A stretch of DNA of 33,148 nt from contig JABEUN010000017.1 of assembly GCA_013044385.1 (NCBI GenBank), positions 1 through 33,148 of the forward strand, written 5' to 3'. Each line of letters opens with the position of its first letter. Position 1 is the stretch's first letter. The translations under genes were made by a program, and so were the position numbers. Shown one piece after another: positions 27,942 through 33,076 of the stretch. The notes beneath the pieces are model-generated. The model saw only the letters and a list, made by a program, of their open reading frames with translations, searched no databases and was not told the origin of the DNA. The DNA comes from Acidimicrobiaceae bacterium (GTDB lineage Bacteria > Actinomycetota > Acidimicrobiia > Acidimicrobiales > Acidimicrobiaceae).

Positions 27942-29810
27942 ATGAAGCCAACAATCACAAAGAGGGGTTCTGGTATTCTCGCTGGAACCGCGGCTGCGGC
28001 ACTTTTGCTTGCAGCTTGCGGAAGCGGGTCATCCAGCTCTTCATCATCAACTTCGTCAGGTTCAGGCACAACGGCTGCTCCCACGAAGGTAGCGGGGGGT
28101 ACGGCAACGTTTGCTGAGGGGCCTGGCGCCTCTCCAAACTACATATTCCCCCTGACCTCAGGAAGTTTCTTCTCAATCAACAATCTGGCTCAGTTCCAGA
28201 TTCTCATGTATCGACCGCTTTACTTCTTCGGAAACGGAAATGAAAACGCGTCGATCAACTACGCGAACAGCATCGCGAATCCACCTGTGTTCTCGAACAA
28301 CAACCAGACGGTCACAATCACGCTGAAGCCATATAAGTGGTCCAACGGCGAAACTGTGAGTGCTAGGGACGTTGTCTTCTGGATGAACATGGTTAAGGCG
28401 AACAAGACTAACTGGGCTGCCTACGTGCCAGGTTCATTCCCTGATAACGTCGTGAGCTATACAGCTACGAGTCCGAATACTGTTGTGTTCCAGCTCAACA
28501 AGAGCTACAACCCAACTTGGTTCCTTTACAATGAGCTGTCGCAGATTACGCCGCTCCCAATTGCTTGGGACACTACGTCATTGACAGCACCTGCACCGAG
28601 TCCTACTGCGGCGAATCTGCCGGATACGACAACAACCGGAGCTCAGGCCGTATACACATTCCTCGATGGACAGTCGAAGGATCTTTCAACCTACGCGACC
28701 AGCCCAATCTGGTCGGTAGTTGACGGCCCGTGGAAGCTCTCCAGCTTCACCACGCAGGGCAAGGCTGTTTTCGTGCCGAACACTACGTATTCGGGACCCG
28801 TCAAGCCATCGCTGGCACAGTTCATCGAGCTACCGTTCACGCAGGATACTGCCGAGTTCAATGTGCTTGCAACGGGCGGTGTTGATGTGGGTTACATTCC
28901 AGTGCCCGAGATTGGCCAGAAGGCAAGGATTGCTTCGCAGGGATACACCTTCACTCCGTGGATTGACTTTGGAATCAACTATTTTGTTGAGAACTACCAC
29001 AACCCGGTTCTAGGCCCTGTGTATTCGCAGCTCTACTTCAGGCAGGCGTTCCAGCATGTCGTGGACCAAGAGCAGTGGATCACATCGTTCTATAAGGGTT
29101 ACGCTGTTCCGACCTACGGTCCGGTGCCAATTCTGCCTTCGAACCCGTTCGCGGACGCGGCATCAAAGCAGAATCCATACCCATACTCGGTGAGCGACGC
29201 AGTAGCGCTGCTTAAGTCACACGGGTGGACCGTTACACCCAACGGGACGGACGTTTGTTCCAACCCGGGTAGCGGGGCGAACCAGTGCGGTGCTGGCGTT
29301 GCTGCGGGAACGAAACTTTCAATGAATCTCCAGTACATGTCGGGTGCAACTGCGCTCGGACAGGCGATGCAGGCTCTTAAGTCAGCGGCAGCCGAGGCTG
29401 GAATCACCATAAACCTAACTTCAGCTCCCTTCAACCAGGTGATTTCAAATGCCGTTCCGTGTCAGTCGACGGCTGCTAACTGTACCTGGGACATGCAGAA
29501 CTGGGGTGGTGGATGGGAGTATTCTCCCGATAACTATCCAACTGGTGGAGAGCTTTTTGCCACCGGTGCTGGATCCAACTTCGGTAGCTACTCTGACCCG
29601 GTGAACGATGCAAACATCACTGCAACGCACACATCGACAGATGCTCAGGGATCGATGAACACGTATCAGGACTACTTGGTGAAGCAGCTTCCGGTTGTAT
29701 GGCAGCCTGCGGCCTACTACCAGCTGTCAGAGATCAGTAACAAGCTGGGTGGAGTGACTCAGAACGCTTACCTGAACTTGACACCAGAGACCTGGTACCT
29801 GAAGGGCTAG
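27942..29810 (+). CDS. Peptide-type ABC transporter substrate-binding lipoprotein (SBP family 5)
   Basis: Extracellular receptor of a DppA/OppA-type importer. A lipoprotein signal peptide is clear: basic MKPTITKRGSG, hydrophobic core, and lipobox LLAAC with the lipidated Cys at about residue 26. It is followed by a Ser/Thr/Gly-rich linker (about 28-48) that spans the wall. The mature domain has family 5 features: PLYFFG near the start, ITLKPYKWSNGETVSARDVVFWMNMVKAN (family signature), the GPWKL hinge region and LYFRQAFQHVVDQEQWI. Length 622 residues. AAGGGG lies close to the ATG, with AGGAGG a further 10 bases upstream. Two permease genes follow on the same strand. Ligand (peptide, nickel or sugar) unknown. 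Confidence 0.94.
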   Translation: MKPTITKRGSGILAGTAAAALLLAACGSGSSSSSSSTSSGSGTTAAPTKVAGGTATFAEGPGASPNYIFPLTSGSFFSINNLAQFQILMYRPLYFFGNGNENASINYANSIANPPVFSNNNQTVTITLKPYKWSNGETVSARDVVFWMNMVKANKTNWAAYVPGSFPDNVVSYTATSPNTVVFQLNKSYNPTWFLYNELSQITPLPIAWDTTSLTAPAPSPTAANLPDTTTTGAQAVYTFLDGQSKDLSTYATSPIWSVVDGPWKLSSFTTQGKAVFVPNTTYSGPVKPSLAQFIELPFTQDTAEFNVLATGGVDVGYIPVPEIGQKARIASQGYTFTPWIDFGINYFVENYHNPVLGPVYSQLYFRQAFQHVVDQEQWITSFYKGYAVPTYGPVPILPSNPFADAASKQNPYPYSVSDAVALLKSHGWTVTPNGTDVCSNPGSGANQCGAGVAAGTKLSMNLQYMSGATALGQAMQALKSAAAEAGITINLTSAPFNQVISNAVPCQSTAANCTWDMQNWGGGWEYSPDNYPTGGELFATGAGSNFGSYSDPVNDANITATHTSTDAQGSMNTYQDYLVKQLPVVWQPAAYYQLSEISNKLGGVTQNAYLNLTPETWYLKG

Positions 29811-29826
29811 CCAACTGGCTAGTTGG
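29811..29826 (+). other. Short hairpin right after the lipoprotein stop
   Basis: CCAACT (29811-29816), loop GGCT, AGTTGG (29821-29826). An alternative pairing CTAGCC/GGCTAG (29807-29812 with 29817-29822) overlaps it, so the two folds exclude each other. Possibly helps protect the 3' end of the abundant receptor message. Confidence 0.35.
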
Positions 29827-29832
29827 ATGTCG

Positions 29833-29871
29833 TGGCCCTGGCCTGAGGACTTGATCCCTGGGTCAGGGCCA
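29833..29871 (+). terminator. Hairpin between receptor and permease genes
   Basis: TGGCCCTG (29833-29840) and CAGGGCCA (29864-29871) are exact inverted repeats with a 23-base loop, followed by TGTAATTTG. A partial terminator here would let the receptor be made in excess over the permeases, as is usual for such transporters. The T-run is weak. Confidence 0.5.
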
Positions 29872-29989
29872 TGTAATTTGACCTTCGTTCTGATATTATT
29901 CGCCAAGGCGTAATTGAATTACCCTTGCTCGGAGATGGCTTTCTCTAAGAGGTTGAGTGGTTGACTATGAGTTGTAGGGGTTGGGTGTT

Positions 29990-30937
29990 TTGACTGCGTT
30001 CCTGATCCGGAGGGTTCTGCAATCGATCGTTGTGGTAATCGGAGTGACGATGATTTCGTTCATTCTCGAACATCTTCTACCGGGAGGTCCTGCCAAGGGC
30101 CTTCTTGGTAATCATGCGACGCCAGTACAGATAGCAGCGTTCAACCACCAGTATGGTTTGGACAAGCCGATCATTATTCAGTACTTGGACTACGCCAAGG
30201 GACTTCTACACGGCAATCTCCAGACTTCCTACAAGTTAAACGAACCGGTAACGTCGATTCTCGCTAGGGAGTTACCGAAGAGTTTGATGCTGGTAGGAAG
30301 TGCTCTTTTCATTTCAGTCCTGATTGCAATTCCAATCGGCATTGCACAGGCTGTGAAGCGTAATAAGACGCTCGACTATGTAATTACGGCGGTCTCCTTC
30401 ATTCTCTACTCCATGCCGTCGTTTTGGCTTGGAATCCTTCTGATCCTCGCCTTTGCTGAGAAGCTGCGCTGGTTCCCGGCAGAGGCTCCACAAGGCGCCA
30501 CGCTGGGCCAGATACTCGCCCAACCAAGTGGGCTAGTGCTGCCTATCATGACCTTGGCGTTGATCAATTTTGCTGCCTACTCGCGATACATGAGATCATC
30601 GGCTATCGAGTCTTTGGCGCAGGACTGGATCAGAACCGCTAGAGCCAAGGGCCTTTCTCAGCGGGTTATCCTCTTCAAGCACATGCTGAGGAACTCGCTT
30701 ATTCCGATTGCTACTCTGGTGGGTCTAAGCCTTCCCGGGGTATTCACCGCTGGCCTCATTACGGAGGCATTGTTCAATTTCCCTGGTACCGGATTCGATT
30801 TTTTCAATGCAGCGGTTAACGAAGATTATCCCCTTCTGCTTGGCATCATCATCGTTATCGGTATCGCCACGGTCGTAGGCAACCTCCTGGCAGATATTGC
30901 GTATGCCGTGTTGGACCCAAGGGTGAGGTATAGCTGA
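29990..30937 (+). CDS. Peptide-type ABC transporter permease (DppB/OppB family)
   Basis: Inner-membrane permease with about six helices. The N-terminal FLIRRVLQSIVVVIGVTMISFILEHLLPGG is the typical first helix of DppB, and YGLDKPIIIQYLDY and GNLQTSY match the periplasmic loop. The ATPase-contacting EAA loop is DWIRTARAKGLSQRVILFKHMLRNSLIP, and EALFNFPGTGFDFFNAA is near the end. I prefer TTG at 29990 (315 residues), which has AGGGG 9 bases upstream; TTG at 29981 would put that site against the codon. The next permease begins 7 bases after the stop, a clear operon. Partner of the lipoprotein before it. Confidence 0.93.
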   Translation: MTAFLIRRVLQSIVVVIGVTMISFILEHLLPGGPAKGLLGNHATPVQIAAFNHQYGLDKPIIIQYLDYAKGLLHGNLQTSYKLNEPVTSILARELPKSLMLVGSALFISVLIAIPIGIAQAVKRNKTLDYVITAVSFILYSMPSFWLGILLILAFAEKLRWFPAEAPQGATLGQILAQPSGLVLPIMTLALINFAAYSRYMRSSAIESLAQDWIRTARAKGLSQRVILFKHMLRNSLIPIATLVGLSLPGVFTAGLITEALFNFPGTGFDFFNAAVNEDYPLLLGIIIVIGIATVVGNLLADIAYAVLDPRVRYS

Positions 30938-30944
30938 GCAATGT

Positions 30945-31943
30945 TTGTCTACGTCGGTTCCCCTAGAGCAGGAGTGGTCTCCCAACGTGTCGCTGACTGA
31001 TAAAGAGAGTTTTCCGCAATCCGTTGGTGATGGCGCAAGCAGCGGTTCAGTTGGGCCGACCGATGGAACTGTTCCTGAAGGTGGTGATGTCTACGTCTCA
31101 GGCAGTGCCTGGAGGCTAGTTCTTCGCTCCTTTATTGACAACAAGCTCGCCCTGATTGGCTTGATCATTGTGATATTTATGTTGGCTTTTTGCTTCATCG
31201 GGCCACACCTGTATCACACGGACCAGTTGAACACGACGTACAACATCAATCTCCCTCCCGGCAAGGGAAGGCCTTTAGGTACTGATGAGAACGGTCGTGA
31301 TGTTCTTGGCCGATTGATGGTGGGTGGTCAGAGTTCGCTTGAGATCGGGTTTGCTGTGGCGTTCATAGCGACCTTCATCGGCGTCATTTATGGAGCGATA
31401 GCTGGGTTTCTTGGAGGTATCGTCGACTCCATCATGATGCGCCTGGTGGACGTATTCCTCGCGATTCCAACACTCTTCATTCTTATCTATCTCGCCTCCA
31501 TCTACCGTCCGACGATCAAGCTGTTAATTGTGGTGATCTCACTTGTATCTTGGCTGGGACCGGCTCGACTCGTTAGAGGTGAGGCTCTGTCGCTTCGGGT
31601 CCGTGAGTACGTAAAGGCTGTAAGGGTTATGGGTGGTGGTTCACGCCGAATAATTCTGCGCCATATCATTCCGAATACGATTGGAACCATCGTAGTGAAC
31701 GCTACCTTCCAAGTGGCTGATGCAATCTTGGTTATGGCTTCCCTGAGCTTCTTGGGATTGGGGATACCCCCACCGGCTGCCAACTGGGGTGGAATGCTCT
31801 CCAATGGTGTGAACTTTATCTATGACGGGTATTGGTGGCTAATCTATCCGGCAGGTGTTGCGATCGTGCTGACTGTGGTGGCCTTCAACTTCATTGGTGA
31901 CGCACTCAGGGATGCCCTTGAAGTGAGACTCCAGAGGCGTTAG
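30945..31943 (+). CDS. Peptide-type ABC transporter permease (DppC/OppC family)
   Basis: Second permease of the importer, 332 residues. A variable, Ser/Gly-rich N-terminus of about 55 residues precedes the first helix (FIDNKLALIGLIIVIFMLAFCFIG). The DppC hallmark HPLGTDENGRD appears as RPLGTDENGRDVLGRLMVGG. The EAA loop is VREYVKAVRVMGGGSRRIILRHIIPNT, and SLSFLGLGIPPPAANWGGML is the conserved end. The start is uncertain: TTG at 30945 lacks a good ribosome-binding site, while GTG at 30987 has AGGAG 12 bases upstream. No ATPase genes (DppD/DppF) follow; the sequence turns into mobile-element debris about 500 bases later. Confidence 0.93.
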   Translation: MSTSVPLEQEWSPNVSLTDKESFPQSVGDGASSGSVGPTDGTVPEGGDVYVSGSAWRLVLRSFIDNKLALIGLIIVIFMLAFCFIGPHLYHTDQLNTTYNINLPPGKGRPLGTDENGRDVLGRLMVGGQSSLEIGFAVAFIATFIGVIYGAIAGFLGGIVDSIMMRLVDVFLAIPTLFILIYLASIYRPTIKLLIVVISLVSWLGPARLVRGEALSLRVREYVKAVRVMGGGSRRIILRHIIPNTIGTIVVNATFQVADAILVMASLSFLGLGIPPPAANWGGMLSNGVNFIYDGYWWLIYPAGVAIVLTVVAFNFIGDALRDALEVRLQRR

Positions 31944-32453
31944 TTTCCAAAAGCTGTCGCTATCAGAGTTGTTATCGAGGAGCAGGTTGGTTCCCAGACG
32001 TAGGCGTTCGCCTTCACGATCTGTCTCGCTACGGCGATTGAGGTTGGTCCATGCAATTCGTGAGTCCTACGAAGGTCATTATGAGACTGGTGGAAATTGA
32101 CGCCTAAGTGAGGCTAAGGGCATGGTTTGGCCCCGCCTAGGTAGCTCAATGGTGGAAATGTTTATCTTTCGTTTCCGGTGGACCAAGTTGCTCATTGAAC
32201 CAGATGGGAGACCGCCTAAAAACGAGGCGCCGGAACGAGACTGGTCTCACTTCTACCAAGACAACTTGCTGGCGATGTCGCATTGGATGTGGATTTGGGA
32301 GATTCAATGCGCCCGTTTGTTTTAGCGGGGGAGCGTATCGCATCTCGCCATGTGTCGAACTCCTTATCGGTTTAATCTGTGGGTGCGGGTATGCAATGCC
32401 AGTATGCAACGGCGGTGTTCGTTGGGGCTCACGGTGTTGGATTCACTGACCCG
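31944..32453. other. Non-coding region after the permease genes
   Basis: About 510 bases with no recognisable gene. I see no trace of the ABC ATPase genes expected here (no Walker A or LSGGQ-type sequence in any frame). A TAGCTCAATGGTGGAA stretch near 32140 resembles a tRNA D arm but no cloverleaf can be built around it. The right edge is the target duplication of the IS21-type element. Confidence 0.5.
32449..32453. repeat. Target-site duplication, left copy
   Basis: ACCCG directly abuts the TGTCGA end of the element at 32454. The same five bases abut the other end at 32838-32842. IS21-family insertions usually duplicate 4-8 bases. Confidence 0.7.
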
Positions 32454-32504
32454 TGTCGACGACGCGTGAAACTGGAGCCAAAACGACGGGCGAAAATGAA
32501 GCCA
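32454..32504 (+). repeat. IS21-type terminal inverted repeat, istB-proximal end
   Basis: Starts TGTCGACGACGCG. Contains two 24-bp-spaced sub-repeats, GACGCGTGAAACTGGAGCC beginning at 32461 and GACGGGCGAAAATGAAGCC beginning at 32485. Matches the inverted copy at 32787-32837 with 13 mismatches in 51. Confidence 0.72.
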
Positions 32505-32556
32505 CGGCCTGTCTCTCGGTCTAGTCGGTTTGCCGTTCTGCTCGCACGCTTGGTAG

Positions 32557-32703
32557 CTATTCCAGGGCTCGATTTCTCAATCGGTAGCTAGCTCCTTTGA
32601 GAGTGAGGACCTCTGCATGGTGGACGATTCGGTCGATTATTTGAGGGGACGGGGCATCGAAAGCTTACCAAGCGTGATGCCGACCGCTGACGACAAGAGC
32701 TAG
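32557..32703 (-). pseudogene. istB: 3' remnant of istB (IS21 helper ATPase)
   Basis: On the minus strand, codons ending at a TAG (32557-32559) read AFDAPSPQI then IDRIVHHAEVLTLKGASYRL and RNRALE. The IDR(I/L)VHHAEV...LKG.SYRL pattern is the typical C-terminus of actinobacterial IstB proteins. Just upstream (32665-32667) an in-frame TAA interrupts, before LALVVSGRHHAW, which fits the preceding (V)SRWH-type segment of IstB. Only about 48 codons remain of roughly 250, there is no start codon, and nothing of the AAA+ core is present. IstB normally helps the IstA transposase choose and strain the target. Non-functional. Confidence 0.7.
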
Positions 32704-32722
32704 TGTGTCTGAAACTGTTCTC

Positions 32723-32837
32723 TTTTCGAGCGTTGTAACTGTACAGTTTTCGAGCGTCGTCGACACACTCATCCAATCTGATTGAATGGCCCCATTTTCG
32801 AGCGTCGGAATGGCCTCATTTTCGAGCGTCATCGACA
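32723..32837 (-). repeat. 24-bp periodic terminal repeats, outer (istA-side) end
   Basis: TTTTCGAGCGT occurs at 32723, 32747, 32795 and 32819. The starts are 24, 48 and 24 apart, so five 24-bp units are implied; the third (32771-32794) has lost the motif but keeps its tail GAATGGCCCCA, matching GAATGGCCTCA in the fourth. A perfect 12-bp palindrome AACTGTACAGTT (32737-32748) spans the first junction. In IS21 such arrays are binding sites for the transposase; here that role is inferred from family knowledge. Confidence 0.75.
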
Positions 32838-32842
32838 ACCCG
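32838..32842. repeat. Target-site duplication, right copy
   Basis: ACCCG immediately after the outer end of the IS21-type element, identical to 32449-32453. Confidence 0.7.
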
Positions 32843-33076
32843 TCCTAGGACGCCACTAGGCGATTTCAATTAGACGGCCCGACGACGTCAACGTATCTCT
32901 TTGTGTCATTCGGTAGTCGAGTTTTCCTCGGAGCCCTCCGTTAAGGGAGGCCTTTGATTCGTTATGGTCGCCAACTGGGTGCTTTTGTGCACTTGGGGGC
33001 GCCGTACCAGATCTCCTCCTATGGACAGATACTGAGGAGCTCCCCAACTACTAACCCACCCGATATGTGAGTTTTG

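Follow-up and report, generated by a model that had tools for sequence, protein, structure and literature searches.

A 384 bp unit with IS21 ends in an Acidimicrobiaceae genome is very probably a decayed nest of two insertion sequences

Introduction

A short stretch of DNA with the inverted ends of an insertion sequence and a flanking target duplication could be a miniature mobile element, or it could be what is left of something larger. Which of these is the 384 bp IS21-like unit near the end of contig C67 of an Acidimicrobiaceae genome? The stretch of DNA analysed, here called the window, is this entire contig (33,148 bp), one of 95 contigs in a genome of 2.8 Mb. The original prediction described the unit as a deletion derivative in which the outer end of an IS21 element was fused to that element's own istB tail, and which might be mobile in the manner of a MITE. 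A deletion derivative with a real target duplication is supported by the results given below, and the unit is very probably a non-coding relic, formed by the decay of a nest of two ordinary IS21 elements.

Results

The unit spans 32454-32837, and each of its ends carries the tip TGTCGA, inverted at 32837. The predicted 51 bp inverted ends were confirmed, with 38 of 51 positions identical; among 200,000 random pairs of 51-mers taken from the window the maximum was 28, and none reached 38. The sequence ACCCG directly abuts both outer tips, as predicted, and the chance that two random 5 bp flanks in this window would match is about 1 in 1000. The istB 3′ fragment predicted inside the unit was also found, as a match to profile PF01695 on the minus strand (32566-32643, profile positions 211-236, at the curated cut-off). 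The 27 aa tail covers profile positions 212-236 and scores 28.7 bits, against a cut-off of 24.1.

Internal repeat analysis found a second set of 24 bp direct repeats inside the unit, and a second TGTCGA tip at 32765. The segment that ends at this tip, which was overlooked in the original prediction, carries a second istB tail followed by a complete IS21 right end, and meets the neighbouring piece at 32766 with a gap of 0 (Table 1). The three pieces account for the whole unit (187 + 125 + 72 = 384 bp). The predicted fusion of an outer end to its own istB tail was not upheld, as the istB tails stem from two different IS21 elements that lie in opposite orientations, the second of which contributes 125 of the 384 bp.

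Table 1. Features of the 384 bp unit and its immediate flanks (window coordinates).
Feature	Coordinates	Strand	Evidence
ACCCG target duplication of the outer element, left copy	32449..32453		Sequence; identical to 32838-32842
Outer IS21 right end (IRR, with two repeats at a spacing of about 25 bp), plus istB 3′ tail	32454..32640	-	187 bp alignment with the right end/istB end of the Frondihabitans IS21
Outer istB C-terminal remnant, 27 aa and stop (IIDRIVHHAEVLTLKGASYRLRNRALE)	32557..32640	-	PF01695, 28.7 bits
Putative deletion junction between oppositely oriented istB tails	32640..32641		Outer homology ends at 32640, inner homology starts at 32641
Inner IS21 istB tail and complete right end (IRR, 24 bp repeats)	32641..32765	+	Starts of contigs C57, C65 and C19 of the same genome; G006:C45
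Inner istB tail, 20 codons and stop	32641-32703	+	Part of the inner IS21 piece
Outer IS21 left end (IRL), cut at base 72 by the inner element, at the istA start	32766..32837	-	Plasmid IS21 left ends
ACCCG target duplication, right copy	32838..32842		Sequence

The relatives of the outer element are found on plasmids. Along its full 72 bp, its left end shows 82-86% identity to IS21 left ends on plasmids of Rhodococcus, Pseudomonas and Frondihabitans, and the first 52 bp of the 32454-32640 piece show 83% identity to a Rhodococcus IS21 left end. A 2,159 bp IS21 on plasmid 1 of Frondihabitans sp. PAMC 28766 (NZ_CP014514, approximately 85429-87587; L171:1914-4072) contains relatives of both outer pieces in the expected order and orientation: the left end (82% over 72 bp), directly adjoining an annotated istA, and, near its right end, the istB stretch 32582-32640 (85% over 59 bp). 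The layout of the ends and the tips are also alike. The Frondihabitans element differs in being full length, with an annotated istA and without a nested element; its istB reading is unannotated and looks frameshifted, and its flanks show no clear target duplication, unlike the ACCCG of the outer element. On plasmid pDF01 of Rhodococcus sp. p52 (NZ_CP016821), the left end shows 86% identity to the 72 bp outer left end and lies beside a helix-turn-helix (istA-like) gene, but the annotated gene there is only a short istA-like one and a right end was not found. Homology to the outer element ends at 32640 in three of the matched loci (L171, L173 and L174).

Because a single Frondihabitans IS21 carries both outer ends, and ACCCG brackets the pair, the two ends can be assigned to one element. 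Its membership of the IS21 family, as originally predicted, is supported by the multi-repeat inverted ends, the tips and the 5 bp target duplication, and by the matches of its ends to known IS21 elements. Each end has repeats (GACG..GAAA) about 24-25 bp apart, and the TG...CA tips are inverted, much like the IS21-family element IS5376, which makes 5 bp repeats and carries at either end two direct repeats spaced by 23 bp (PMC10122671). Of the genes of the outer element only the C-terminal tail of istB remains, and since the left ends of its relatives adjoin istA, it presumably once had istA as well. The original prediction called for a full IS21 with the same ends; a search of intact istB loci within the taxonomic family yielded no such parent, whereas the plasmid search gave the Frondihabitans and Rhodococcus relatives.

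The inner element has its nearest relatives in the same genome. Its right end (32667-32765) shows four mismatches in 97-99 bp to the first bases of contigs C57, C65 and C19. Over the part they have in common, these three contig starts do not differ from one another, and all show the same four differences from the window; immediately past the TCGACA tip they diverge. We take them to represent the right end of an IS21 present in several copies, where the assembly broke off. At the end of a further contig, C74, is a left end of this IS21 type with the start of istA (LEDWAIIRRLAAEGIP). The sequence ACCGA is common to the left flank of C74 and the right flank of C65, a 5 bp duplication, so that these two contigs most likely flank one full resident copy. 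The full-length inner element is unassembled in this MAG, its two ends being read from separate contigs. Compared with the resident IS21, of which the C74/C65 copy has both ends and ACCGA, the copy in the window is truncated and has four private differences. The inner piece is also 90% identical to G006:C45, and homology to the inner element begins at 32641 (L091). The istB tail followed by a right end with 24 bp repeats, together with the ACCGA duplication at the intact copy, supports placing the inner element in the IS21 family; this element is real and has moved within this genome.

The two elements meet at a well-defined point. Six other IS21 left ends align with the outer left end up to precisely base 72, which corresponds to the annotated istA start of the Frondihabitans relative; beyond it, the six continue into the start of istA, whereas the window has the tip of the inner element (TGTCGACGACG). 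As the outer left end is the one interrupted, we infer that the outer element was inserted first.

Upstream of the unit, the window carries peptide ABC transporter genes (27942-31943) that encode a solute-binding protein of family 5 and two permeases, and the nearest relatives of the permease gene are in Acidimicrobiaceae and other actinobacterial MAGs. An empty site was not found; searches of 30 relatives with the flanks (31954-32453, 32838-33039) gave no match. In the nearest MAGs, the intergenic DNA downstream of the second permease gene does not align with the window, though the gene does. The end of the contig (33040-33148) has a motif (MKSKRHTPEQVIRK) which we take to be the start of an IS3-type transposase gene. 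Since five more copies of this stretch occur elsewhere in the genome (79-99% identity), C67 probably broke at another multi-copy IS.

Other traces of IS21 elements were seen. Isolated left ends recur in the family and order (L096:4145-4216 and L097:169-240 in G008; L132:189-242 and L131:4558-4605 in G163; L113:101-186 in contig C38 of the same genome), some with a decayed istA start, and with no istB or right end seen nearby; these are probably relics. Two other istB genes are present in the genome (G000:C58:32950-33642 and G000:C3:374-685), one of them full length. The element DNA of the window gave no match to either, and they probably belong to other IS21 types.

Sequence searches with the 384 bp composite gave one full match in its own genome and three partial matches, limited to query positions 219-322 and all starting at the first base of a contig. 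It was not found in any other genome in searches of 40, 42 and 397 genomes (its own genome being counted in each, and the set of 397 being sampled from the order of the window). Several short copies, each with its own target duplication, were not found in the own genome or the searched relatives, and a genome-wide search for ends showed no further case of two facing ends lying within 600 bp.

Discussion

The identities and orientations of the two elements, the insertion point, the junction and the target duplication can be read from the DNA itself, and suggest the following history. First, an IS21 of the type found on the Frondihabitans and Rhodococcus plasmids, about 2.2 kb long, would have entered intergenic DNA in minus orientation, duplicating ACCCG. 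A different IS21, the multi-copy resident, would then have landed, in plus orientation, in the outer left end 72 bp from its tip, inactivating the outer istA by a hit at its start. Finally, a deletion of about 4 kb (a size derived from those of the elements), with one breakpoint in each istB, would have joined the istB tails at 32640/32641. The outer element would thereby have lost istA and most of istB, and the inner element its left end, istA and most of istB, leaving a unit that is presumably inactive at present.

An ordinary deletion would suffice to explain the junction, which bears no sign of the action of IS ends, as both breakpoints fall within istB. For the IS21 element ISPve1, transposition has been reported to produce large deletions, but these lay in target DNA (PMC3281130).

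One alternative, that one IS21 lost its middle and fused an outer end to its own istB tail, is correct in part, since a single element did supply both outer ends together with one of the istB tails. It is extremely unlikely, however. The two istB tails in the unit are distinct and point in opposite directions, and a third IS21 terminus lies at 32765, which another element of the genome matches almost exactly; one internal deletion of a single element cannot produce this arrangement. An inversion within one element, hinted at by two G006 matches on opposite strands, was ruled out, because the two tails are unlike in sequence and each has its matches in another element. The composite might instead be a chimera of two IS21 copies produced in the metagenome assembly, which is fragmented (95 contigs) and breaks at IS ends, and nearly 100 bp of the inner end are common to three contig starts. 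We consider this very unlikely, given that four differences are private to the inner copy and are not seen in the three contig starts, which are identical, that the ACCCG duplication suits the outer pair, and that the insertion point falls exactly at the inner tip.

It is conceivable in principle that the deletion came first and that the short form transposed afterwards. The deleted form would then itself have moved here in MITE-like fashion, using the IstA and IstB of an intact IS21, and ACCCG would date from that move. Each outer end does retain two repeats and intact TG...CA tips, and a perfect 5 bp duplication directly borders the short form. However, the original full-length insertion predicts the ACCCG duplication equally, and we agree with the caution in the original prediction that the duplication fits both histories. 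Across its own genome and the others searched there is a single copy, with no source copy and no other facing ends at 600 bp or less, and we regard such a move as highly improbable; the proposed MITE-like mobility is opposed by there being only one copy in its own genome and none in the other genomes sampled from the order, an outcome that the original prediction itself had named as refuting it. Bacterial MITEs are likewise short and non-coding, with inverted ends and a target duplication, but the unit differs from them in its single copy, its mosaic interior of two elements and the lack of any sign of amplification. In a literature search that covered open-licence full texts, the titles and abstracts listed describe no IS21 MITE. 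In vitro, the IstA of IS5376 requires two complete repeats per end (PMC10122671). There is accordingly a small chance that the composite could still be moved by the IstA and IstB of an IS21 in the same cell, as a non-autonomous mini-element arising from nesting and deletion.

A nested insertion followed by deletion thus remains the preferred reading, and is a common fate of insertion sequences. The 384 bp relic is by itself of little importance, being an ordinary IS21 fossil rather than a novel type of miniature mobile element. The steps of its decay might be dated from a series of close relatives. It carries a caution for the recognition of mini-elements: matching outer ends and a target duplication are not sufficient, as the interior may reveal a nest that has decayed in place.
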